Assembly: GCA_902538915.1 (NCBI GenBank)
Contig: CACBGZ010000001.1
Location: forward strand, 117,108-181,107
Reading direction: 5' to 3'
DNA: 64,000 bases
Source of the DNA: an uncultured Pelagibacteraceae bacterium
GTDB taxonomy: Bacteria; Pseudomonadota; Alphaproteobacteria; Pelagibacterales; Pelagibacteraceae
Part shown: positions 2,335 to 6,036 of the stretch, piece by piece
How the letters are laid out: each line of letters opens with the position of its first letter
How positions within the stretch are numbered: the first letter of the stretch is position 1
Made by a program: the position numbers and the translations under genes
The notes under the pieces: generated by a model
The model's input: only the letters and a program-made list of their open reading frames with translations
Told to the model about the DNA's origin: nothing
Databases searched by the model: none

Positions 2335-3657
2335 ATGTCAAATATTTTTGTAATAAGAAAAAAAATCAGTAGTTTTTATAATAAGACAGTGAGTGTAAGC
2401 GGTGATAAAAGTCTAAGTATTAGATGGGTTCTTTTAGCATCTTTAGCTGATGGAAAATCGAAATCTTTTAATCTTCTTAAATCTGATGATGTAAAAGCGT
2501 CTATTGATGCAATAAAAAAACTTGGAATTAATGTTAAATTAAAAAAAGATTTTTGTGAAATCGATGGCAAGGGTTTAAATGGTTATAAGTATAAAAAAAA
2601 TATTGTAATAAATGCAAAAAATTCAGGAACTTTAGGAAGATTGATCTTAGGCTTATTAGCTGATTGTAATGAAAAAATAAAGATTATTGGTGACAAAAGT
2701 CTTTCGAAAAGAGATTTTAAAAGAGTTACAGATCCACTAAGAAAGTTTGGTGTAAAATTTAAACTTACGAATAATAAAAACCTACCTTTAACAATTTTAG
2801 GAAGTAAAAACTTAAAGCCAATAAAATACAATGAAGAAAAAGGATCTGCTCAATGCAAGAGTAGTGTGATATTTGCAGGATTAAAAACTAAAGGCACAAC
2901 AATTGTAAAAGCTAAAAAATCCAGAAACCATACTGAATTATTATGTAAATACCTTAAATTACCAGTAAGTTTATCTAGAAAAAAAAATTATGATCTTATT
3001 AAAATAAAAAAAGCAAAAAAAATAAAATCTTTTAATTACAACATTCCATCTGACATAAGTTCAGCAGCATTTTTTATAGTACTTACATGTTTAACAGAAA
3101 ATTCGGCTTTAACAGTGAAAAATGTAAATATAAATGCCTCTAGAATTGGAATTATAATCATTTTAAAAAGAATGGGAGCTAAAATATTCTTTAGAAATAA
3201 AAGGTTTTACAAAGGAGAATTTATTGCGGATATTTTTGTTAAAAGTTCAGAGAATTTAAAATCAATCAATTGTCCTGTTAAATTAAATACTAGCTCAATA
3301 GACGAATTTCTTTTAATTTTTTTAGTAGCTGCAAAAGCAAAAGGTGTTTCATTTTTCAGAAATCTAAGTGAGCTTAATCAAAAAGAAAGTCCAAGGCTTA
3401 GATTGGGTTCAAAAATCTTAAATTTGATGGGAATTAAAAATGAGGTCACCAATAGTTCAATTAAAATTTTTGGAAATCCTCAAATGAATATTAAAAAGAA
3501 GATTATAATCAAAAACTATCTTAAAGATCATAGAATATTTATGTCATCTGTAATAGCAGCACTAACTTTTGGGGGTGAATGGCATATACACGATAAAGAT
3601 TCAATAAATTCATCTTTTCCAAATTTTTTAAAAATTTTAAAACAAATACAAAAGTGA
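2335..3657 (+). CDS. aroA: 3-phosphoshikimate 1-carboxyvinyltransferase (EPSP synthase)
   Basis: Sixth step of the shikimate pathway: adds enolpyruvyl from PEP to shikimate-3-phosphate. Family signatures are GDKSLSIR near the N terminus, NSGTLGR in place of the usual NAGTAMR, SAQCKSS, SRNHTE, PSDISSAAF, LNQKESPR in place of LRxKESDR, and DHRIFMS. Key Lys/Arg residues are kept, but several flanking positions are divergent. At 440 residues it is full length. It starts 5 bp after lptB and its TGA overlaps the GTG start of cmk. aroK and aroB lie separately at about 36-37.6 kb. Confidence 0.93.
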   Translation: MSNIFVIRKKISSFYNKTVSVSGDKSLSIRWVLLASLADGKSKSFNLLKSDDVKASIDAIKKLGINVKLKKDFCEIDGKGLNGYKYKKNIVINAKNSGTLGRLILGLLADCNEKIKIIGDKSLSKRDFKRVTDPLRKFGVKFKLTNNKNLPLTILGSKNLKPIKYNEEKGSAQCKSSVIFAGLKTKGTTIVKAKKSRNHTELLCKYLKLPVSLSRKKNYDLIKIKKAKKIKSFNYNIPSDISSAAFFIVLTCLTENSALTVKNVNINASRIGIIIILKRMGAKIFFRNKRFYKGEFIADIFVKSSENLKSINCPVKLNTSSIDEFLLIFLVAAKAKGVSFFRNLSELNQKESPRLRLGSKILNLMGIKNEVTNSSIKIFGNPQMNIKKKIIIKNYLKDHRIFMSSVIAALTFGGEWHIHDKDSINSSFPNFLKILKQIQK

Positions 3658-4322
3658 AAATCAGAATTAAAAAATTAAAAATTGCAATCGACTCGCCCGC
3701 AGCAGCAGGAGCAGGAACATTGGCAAAAAAAATATCAAATTATTATAATTTATACTATCTAGATACAGGTAAGATTTACAGGTATATCGCATATTTAAAA
3801 ATCAGATATCCCAAAAAATTTGATAATAGTTTTATCAAAAAACAAATTAAGAAACTAAAAGTCAAAGAATTGAAAAAAAAAGAGTTAATTTCTGATGAGG
3901 TTGGGCTTGAGGCATCTAAAATTTCTCAGAAAAAAAATATTCGTAAACTTGTCCATAAATTTCAAATTAAATGTGCATATCAACCACCAAAAGGTTATAA
4001 TGGTTCTTGTTTGGATGGAAGAGACATAACATATAATATAGTACCTGATGCAGATTTTAAATTTTTTATAACTGCCAATGTAAAAACTAGGGCACTTAGA
4101 AGATATAAGGAATTAAAATCAATGAACAAGAATGTTAAATACCTTGATGTGCTTAAAAGCATTAAAAAACGTGATAAAAGTGACTATAATCGAAAAGTGG
4201 CACCACTTAAGAAAACTAAAGATTCGGTATTGATAAACACAACAAAGTTATCTAAAAGTTCCTGTTTTTTAAAAATAAAAAAAATTATAGACAAGAATAT
4301 TAATATTAATGGAAATTTATAA
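3654..4322 (+). CDS. cmk: Cytidylate kinase-like protein with altered P-loop
   Basis: CMP/dCMP kinase family, 222 residues. Supporting motifs are YYLDTGKIYR (canonical YLDTGAMYR) and LDGRDITYNIVPDADFKFFI (canonical DGRDxGTVVFPDA). The position between aroA and rpsA is the classic cmk neighbourhood. The P-loop reads DSPAAAGAGT (residues 13-22) instead of DGPAxSGKGT, so the Walker A lysine is alanine at residue 20 and the first glycine is serine. The rest of the fold looks intact, so this is a variant and not an obvious pseudogene. It uses a GTG start overlapping aroA by 4 bp and overlaps rpsA by 14 bp. Confidence 0.88.
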   Translation: MKIRIKKLKIAIDSPAAAGAGTLAKKISNYYNLYYLDTGKIYRYIAYLKIRYPKKFDNSFIKKQIKKLKVKELKKKELISDEVGLEASKISQKKNIRKLVHKFQIKCAYQPPKGYNGSCLDGRDITYNIVPDADFKFFITANVKTRALRRYKELKSMNKNVKYLDVLKSIKKRDKSDYNRKVAPLKKTKDSVLINTTKLSKSSCFLKIKKIIDKNININGNL

Positions 4323-6036
4323 AGATTTAACAAATCCAGCATCAAAAGAATTCAAAGAATTACTTAATAGTCAGTTATCCAAATCAAAAATTGAAGAAGG
4401 AAAAATAATTGAAGGAAAAATAAATAAAATAACCGAAAAATTCGTTTTTTTATTTGTAGAGGGTCTAAAAAGCGAACCGGTATTAGATATTAACGAATTG
4501 AAAAATATGGGACTAGCAGAAAAAATAAAAGTGGGCGAAAAAGTTTCTGTATTATTAGAAAAAATAGAGGATAAAAATGGCGAAGTTTTAGTTTCTGCAA
4601 GTAAAGCACAAAAAATAAAAGGGTGGGATAAACTTGTTGAAGCTTACGAAAAAAATGAACCTATAATGGGCAAGATTACCTCTAAATGTAAAGGTGGCTG
4701 CATTGTTGAGCACATAGAAACTGGCTCTTTAATGTTTTTACCAGGATCACAAATAAGTGATAAACCATTAAAAGATATTAGCCATCTAATGAATGAACCT
4801 CAAAAATTTGCATTAATAAAATTAGATAAGATACGAGGTAATGCGTGTGTTTCAAGAAGAGAAATAATATCAAATTTTAAAAAAGAAGATAAAGCAAAAA
4901 TAGTTGATAAATATAAAGTTGGAGACATCATAAGAAATGCTGAAGTAAAAGGTTATAGTACGTTTGGATGTTTTTTTAACGTTAATGATGAATTAGATGT
5001 ACTTGTACACCTTCAAGAGATTTCATACTCCAGAGTAAATCACCCAGACGAAGTATTTAATATAGGTGAAAAACATGATTTAAAGGTTATATCAGTTGAT
5101 AAAGAGAAGCTTCAAGTTGGATGTTCCGTTAAACAATTGTCACCAGATCCATTCGAACATATAGAAAATTATGAGTTGAATAAAGTTTACAAGGCAAAGG
5201 TCATGAAGATTATGGATTTTGGTGCTTTCTGTGAGCTAGAACCTGGATTAACTACCTTGTTACATTCAAGTGAACTAAGTTGGGCTAAAAAAAATGTTTC
5301 AACAAAAAAAATGTTAAATATTGGCGACGAAATAGACTGTGTAATAACAGAAATAGATAAAGAAAAAAGAAGAGTGGCTATTTCTCATAGATTAACAAAA
5401 GAAAATCCCTTTGAAACTTTTGAAAAAAAATATCCATTAAATACAATTTTAGAGACTGAAGTTGTTAATAAAAATGAATACTCATTATTCGTTAAAGCAG
5501 AAGATGTAGATGCAGATGCATTTTTACATTGTAATGATTTGACATACTTAAACAATGGTGAAGATGAATTATCAAAATATAAAAAAGGAGACAAAATAAA
5601 AGTTAAAGTTTTAGAGATAAAAGTCTCAGATCAAAAAATAAGAGTTGGATTAAAACAAACTCAGCCCGATCCATTTGATTGGTTCAAAGATAAGAAAATT
5701 AATCAAACTATAACTGTAAAAATTACCTCTACAGATAATAAAGGTTTAATAGTCAAACCGGAAGGATGTGAGATGGATTTTATCATTAAAAAATCACAAA
5801 TTGCAATAAACAGTGCAGATGCAAGGCCTTCTAGATTTACTGGAGGGGAAAAAGTAGATTGCGCAATCGCTGAACTAGATATGAGCAAAAGAAAAGTCTC
5901 TTTAAGCATGAAGCTACTTGAAGAAATTGAGAAAAAAGAGGCGTTAGACAAATACGGAGCTGAAGGTTCAGGAAAAAACCTTCCATTTTCATCTCTTTCA
6001 GAAGATTTAAAAAAAAAGGGTGAAGGTAAAAAATAG
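4309..6036 (+). CDS. rpsA: 30S ribosomal protein S1
   Basis: Binds mRNA on the small subunit and aids initiation. The 575 residues contain about six S1/OB repeats; the best match to consensus are those with YSTFGCFFNV, VLVHLQEISYSR, IMDFGAFCELEPG and LLHSSELSW. Length equals other alphaproteobacterial S1 proteins (about 560-570). The start lies inside the cmk 3' end, implying translational coupling. ihfB follows after 22 bp, the usual cmk-rpsA-ihfB order. Confidence 0.97.
   Translation: MEIYKDLTNPASKEFKELLNSQLSKSKIEEGKIIEGKINKITEKFVFLFVEGLKSEPVLDINELKNMGLAEKIKVGEKVSVLLEKIEDKNGEVLVSASKAQKIKGWDKLVEAYEKNEPIMGKITSKCKGGCIVEHIETGSLMFLPGSQISDKPLKDISHLMNEPQKFALIKLDKIRGNACVSRREIISNFKKEDKAKIVDKYKVGDIIRNAEVKGYSTFGCFFNVNDELDVLVHLQEISYSRVNHPDEVFNIGEKHDLKVISVDKEKLQVGCSVKQLSPDPFEHIENYELNKVYKAKVMKIMDFGAFCELEPGLTTLLHSSELSWAKKNVSTKKMLNIGDEIDCVITEIDKEKRRVAISHRLTKENPFETFEKKYPLNTILETEVVNKNEYSLFVKAEDVDADAFLHCNDLTYLNNGEDELSKYKKGDKIKVKVLEIKVSDQKIRVGLKQTQPDPFDWFKDKKINQTITVKITSTDNKGLIVKPEGCEMDFIIKKSQIAINSADARPSRFTGGEKVDCAIAELDMSKRKVSLSMKLLEEIEKKEALDKYGAEGSGKNLPFSSLSEDLKKKGEGKK

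Follow-up and report, generated by a model that had tools for sequence, protein, structure and literature searches.

A cytidylate kinase without the Walker A lysine, kept intact across a lineage of SAR11 bacteria

Many SAR11 bacteria encode a cytidylate kinase (CMK) that is permanently without the lysine by which almost all enzymes of its kind grip ATP. Since the gene is kept intact, this enzyme probably works by drawing the positive charge from another part of its active site.

Results

The gene and its P-loop

The window, which is the whole 64,000-nucleotide stretch of uncultured Pelagibacteraceae DNA that was analysed, contains the following features, numbered from its first letter:

2335..3657, + strand: aroA, the upstream neighbour (PF00275 and TIGR01356 over cutoff)
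3654..4322, + strand: cmk, cytidylate kinase without the Walker A lysine (222 aa, GTG start; profile matches and AF2 model)
3690..3719, + strand: P-loop, D13 to T22, DSPAAAGAGT (translation and pattern scan)
3693..3695, + strand: Ser14, codon TCG, at the site of the canonical first P-loop glycine (Gly14 to Ser)
3711..3713, + strand: Ala20, codon GCA, at the site of the canonical Walker A lysine (Lys20 to Ala)
3771..3773, + strand: Lys40, candidate compensating basic residue (from the alignment)
4011..4025, + strand: LDGRD motif, conserved in the clade; R123 and D124 bind CMP and D121 lies on the metal-water side (roles according to PMC7259600)
4170..4193, + strand: LID helix R173...D177..R180, invariant in all aligned SAR11 CMKs
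4212..4214, + strand: Lys187, second always-basic position of the lysine-free enzymes (alignment)
4278..4280, + strand: Lys209 in the C-terminal helix, third always-basic position of the lysine-free enzymes (alignment)
4309..6036, + strand: rpsA, the downstream neighbour and basis of the species-side tree (profile searches)

In the ORF list of the window, the GTG start codon of cmk overlaps the stop codon of aroA. The first-pass annotation had read the P-loop as having alanine for the Walker A lysine and serine for the first glycine, and this reading is exact: residues 13–22 are DSPAAAGAGT, and the consensus GxxxxGK[ST] fails at precisely these two sites, Ser14 (TCG) and Ala20 (GCA). It was equally right that other CMK motifs are kept, YLDTG and LDGRD both being intact, and that the gene stands in its normal locus, in the usual order aroA-cmk-rpsA. 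The back-translated P-loop pattern matched once in the window and not at all in 100 shuffles.

Identity as a cytidylate kinase

Homology, fold, gene position and substrate-contacting residues all identify the window protein as a CMK, for which CMP/dCMP kinase activity is predicted. It scores 150.4 bits against PF02224 (Cytidylate_kin; cutoff 26, E 7.8e-44) and 140.4 bits against the cmk equivalog TIGR00017 (cutoff 135.55). The AF2 model (pLDDT 94.3) has the three-domain CMK fold, the best 14 structure matches running from Z 26.9 down to 21.4, and the closest structures are CMKs (7L4A, E. coli 1KDO and S. aureus 2H92; Z 26–27 over 203–211 residues). For the family PF13189 (Cytidylate_kin2) there was no match in the window genome at E 0.001; among lysine-free CMKs, that of genome G164 reaches 30.3 bits against a cutoff of 28 and the others fall below it.

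Residues S/T38, Y42, R43, R123, D124, R173, D177 and R180 are all present in the window protein and invariant among its lysine-free relatives, and R43, R97, Q104, R123, D124, R149, R150, R173, D177 and R180 are invariant in the alignments of both lysine-free and canonical SAR11 CMKs. Thr38 is usual in other alphaproteobacterial CMKs too (28 of 29), and Ala18 is nearly fixed across the lysine-free clade.

Known bacterial CMKs (E. coli 1KDO/2CMK, S. aureus 2H92 and T. thermophilus 3AKC) share with the window protein their fold (Z 24–26), CMP-binding and LID residues, gene neighbourhood and length, whereas alanine in place of the Walker A lysine, serine in place of the first P-loop glycine, and a residue 40 that is always basic set the lysine-free enzymes apart. 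The top-scoring lysine-bearing relatives are canonical SAR11 CMKs of genus g3 (L119, L140 and L162), which have Lys40, DGRD and the YNPP stretch in common with the window protein; unlike it, they keep the lysine in a DGPAASGKGT/NT P-loop, and they have Pro187 and Asp209 where it has lysine.

Distribution of the lysine-free P-loop

The AGAGT variant, whose conservation across SAR11 had been raised as a question by the first-pass annotation, is indeed conserved: the back-translated DSPAAAGAGT pattern was present in 101 of the 297 genomes from the SAR11 order, all of the window's genus, while the same pattern read backwards gave 0 hits in the 297 genomes. The carriers include the isolate HTCC9565 and many single-cell genomes. 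At 99 of the 111 first loci the motif could be read, as DSPAAAGAGT in 97 cases and once each as DSPAGAGAGT and DSPAAAGAGS. Position 20 is alanine in 142, lysine in 76 and serine in one (G164, L169) of 219 SAR11 CMKs, a set in which a few rows are one gene fetched twice. Ser14 accompanies Ala20 in all 142 aligned sequences, and Gly14 is found in all 76 canonical ones. Since all four alanine codons are used at residue 20 among the relatives, it is the residue and not the DNA that is kept. Outside the order, Lys20 is present in all 29 alphaproteobacterial CMKs, which were picked as the most similar to the lysine-free profile.

Canonical GKGT relatives, which the first-pass annotation would have taken to indicate an assembly error or isolated decay, do occur in the window's genus. 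Their genes, however, are of another lineage, and the variant itself is conserved in many genomes that are independent of one another. Further lysine-free P-loops are seen in the related genus g6 (L169 in G164, L168 in G282 and L170 in G234), namely DATAGSGSTS, with serine for lysine, and DSPxAAGAGT; these sequences branch first within the lysine-free clade. One match to the P-loop pattern on a viral contig (L294) was set aside as chance, the DNA being GC-rich and unlike that of SAR11.

A single origin, under constraint

The loss of the P-loop lysine has a single origin. A tree built from 136 CMKs places the lysine-free sequences on one side of a single branch within Pelagibacteraceae (support 100/98), and this clade was recovered in all 200 bootstrap trees checked. 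Furthermore, the lysine-free cmk is under purifying selection, pairwise dN/dS between close lysine-free pairs being about 0.03–0.18, with similar values for canonical SAR11 CMKs.

Two genomes carry duplicated lysine-free genes. In G088, the copy in the native position between aroA and rpsA is decaying and interrupted by many stops (L155, C2:114507-117527), and an intact copy is found elsewhere (L154). G241 has two intact copies (L156 and L157), of which one occupies the native locus and the other a different site.

Locus, copy number and the search for another CMP kinase

Ala20 genes stand at aroA-cmk-rpsA in 138 of 142 cases, which is also where canonical CMKs lie in the rest of the order. 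There is no second PF02224 gene in the window genome (79% complete), and no canonical CMK was found in 28 of the 29 lysine-free genomes searched, four single-contig genomes among the 28. G179 (L152 and L153), the only one of the 29 with a canonical CMK as well, has this gene at aroA-rpsA and the lysine-free one 38 kb away on the same contig. Among PF00406 kinases we found nothing beyond one adk, and in lysine-free genomes no PF13189 kinase exceeded the cutoff apart from cmk itself. Thus a second CMP/UMP kinase, which the first-pass annotation had suggested looking for, did not emerge: none of these three families gave a convincing candidate beyond cmk and adk.

About 30 genomes of the order appeared to be without any CMK. 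True CMK loss in the order was not shown: among 15 genomes without a convincing CMK, 10 also lack a full-strength rpsA match, which indicates assembly gaps, and the remaining five show aroA next to rpsA with no cmk between them, as do genomes with a canonical CMK at another locus. Such a cmk-free junction is seen in some Pelagibacter (L270–L279 and L186–L202), and in several of these a canonical CMK (CDGESASGKST or CDGEAASGKST) lies in a different place. In genera g2 and g4 (L172–L174, L183 and L184), open frames of 657–669 aa appear to be aroA-cmk fusions.

Exchange with canonical CMKs

An rpsA tree mixes lysine-free and canonical genomes, so that the lysine-free label needs 14 changes, at least six of them forced by well-supported branches; the exact number of swaps is uncertain, since this single-gene tree was quickly made and has some long branches, and since rpsA may have travelled with cmk. 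The CMK tree, by contrast, has one lysine-free clade and one origin, and therefore the two kinds of CMK have been swapped repeatedly. Some swaps took place in situ; in others the canonical gene lies at a different site, and aroA is followed by rpsA with no cmk between them. In evolution, lysine-free and canonical CMKs thus seem to be interchangeable, as expected of two enzymes doing the same job.

The first-pass annotation had offered two explanations: either the enzyme compensates, or another kinase has taken over CMP phosphorylation. Compensation is favoured, because the gene is preserved intact under strong constraint, is in most cases the sole CMK, and is interchangeable in evolution with canonical versions. 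A takeover is unlikely and found no support in the searches with PF02224, PF00406 and PF13189, which gave only cmk and adk.

Candidate sources of the substitute charge

A screen for basic residues fixed in the lysine-free clade and not elsewhere gave three positions, 40, 187 and 209. Position 40 is lysine or arginine in all 143 lysine-free CMKs, compared with 30 of 76 canonical SAR11 CMKs and 7 of 29 other alphaproteobacterial CMKs. Over 12.7 tree units within the lysine-free clade it undergoes only changes between lysine and arginine, while in the canonical sister clade the position has 7 changes and is mostly leucine.

In a profile alignment, K40 aligns without gaps with the aspartic acid of the adenylate kinase STGD motif, which is Asp33 of the E. 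coli enzyme and lies beside Mg2+ and the phosphates; a search of the literature for a statement linking Asp33 to Mg2+ gave none. A lysine at position 40 could plausibly reach the phosphates. Some canonical CMKs that still have Lys20, those of g3 among them, possess K40 as well, and finding it is therefore not in itself proof of substitution; moreover, since the lysine-free form arose once, the association of Lys20 loss with K40 is a single phylogenetic event. Because the g3 enzymes have both lysines, Lys40 may have been gained earlier and made the loss of Lys20 possible. Among the nucleotide contacts described for the Thermus CMK in the accessible part of PMC7259600, the residue equivalent to position 40 does not appear. 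From the alignments, Lys/Arg40 is the best, though tentative, candidate for the substitute of the lost charge, and positions 187 and 209 remain alternative sources.

Discussion

Proposed mechanism and precedents

In the T. thermophilus CMK, as described in PMC7259600, Lys15 (residue 20 here) bridges the beta-phosphates of ADP and CDP, two LID arginines grip the transferred phosphate, and P-loop main-chain amides bind the donor beta-phosphate. Only the contribution of the lysine is missing from the lysine-free SAR11 enzymes. It is very probable that these are catalytically active. We further consider it likely, judging from conservation and phylogeny, that they are housekeeping CMP/dCMP kinases whose lysine was lost once and whose bridging charge comes from elsewhere, with Lys/Arg40 the likeliest source. 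The P-loop lysine would have been lost in an ancestor within Pelagibacteraceae and never regained. The ATP beta-phosphate would still be cradled by P-loop backbone amides, and CMP and the transferred phosphate would be held by the invariant R43, R123, R173 and R180, together with R149/R150. The charge that bridges the phosphates of both substrates would be supplied from outside the P-loop, most likely by Lys/Arg40 at the site of adenylate kinase Asp33. It is somewhat less likely than not that the catalytic lysine of a P-loop kinase has here relocated naturally, Lys20 having been lost after a basic residue 40 could serve the phosphates and the enzyme having gone on working; such a shift would be comparable to the catalytic-lysine relocation of WNK protein kinases.

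Precedents are partial. In Mycobacterium tuberculosis CoaE, a dephospho-CoA kinase, the K14A substitution at the equivalent P-loop position lowers kcat by only 19%, leaving about 81%, and its authors suggest that a nearby charge, perhaps a lid-side arginine, compensates (PMC3019153); that protein is a laboratory mutant of another kinase, whereas the lysine-free CMK is a natural lineage. Two structures deposited as a putative kinase and an uncharacterized protein, 3HDT and 3FDI, have a CMK-like fold similar to the window protein (Z 14–15) and natural P-loops that also lack the lysine (GSGGR/GSGGH), but they are of a different sequence family, presumably PF13189 Cytidylate_kin2-like, and are also without the following threonine or serine. 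We found no published lysine-free CMK, and no discussion of SAR11 cmk, in the open-access literature.

Alternative explanations

The enzyme might be active with no lysine having moved at all: P-loop amides and Mg2+, together with the usual LID and NMP arginines, could be enough, perhaps at a lower turnover that is tolerable in a slow-growing oligotroph. All the relevant arginines are invariant in the lysine-free enzymes, and CoaE K14A tolerates the equivalent substitution, its authors invoking nearby charge (PMC3019153). However, a strictly basic position 40 in the lysine-free clade only would be left unexplained, and we regard this explanation as unlikely.

It is considerably less probable that the protein is a pseudoenzyme that binds CMP without catalysis in a regulatory or structural role, CMP being phosphorylated by another enzyme such as PyrH. 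Loss of the Walker A lysine classically inactivates P-loop enzymes, and CMK is dispensable in E. coli; yet the catalytic LID residues are invariant, lysine-free and canonical forms repeatedly replace each other, and no substitute was found among the kinase families PF02224, PF00406 and PF13189 in the genomes tested.

A kinase with changed chemistry, using another phosphate donor or acting mainly on another acceptor, is very improbable: Gly14 and the rest of the P-loop did change together, with Ala18 nearly fixed, but the CMP contacts Thr38, Tyr42, Arg43, Arg123, Asp124, Asp177 and Arg180 are kept, and Thr38 is the ordinary residue of alphaproteobacterial CMKs. Sequencing or assembly error, or isolated decay, is rejected, given a variant conserved in about 100 independent genomes that include an isolate and single-cell genomes, purifying selection on the lysine-free cmk, and the quite different appearance of the genuinely decaying copy in G088.

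Implications

The Walker A lysine is held to be nearly indispensable and is used for calling proteins active or dead. Here a known enzyme is seen in a new variant, a single-copy housekeeping kinase that has been without this lysine over the history of a large clade while being exchanged with canonical versions. It thereby offers a natural experiment in how a P-loop enzyme can lose its key residue, and a close sister clade that has the lysine allows comparison. It also cautions that such proteins should not be marked as pseudoenzymes by motif alone. If the proposed reading is true, a bacterial group that ranks among the most abundant in the ocean would have a working nucleoside monophosphate kinase that is free of the Walker lysine.
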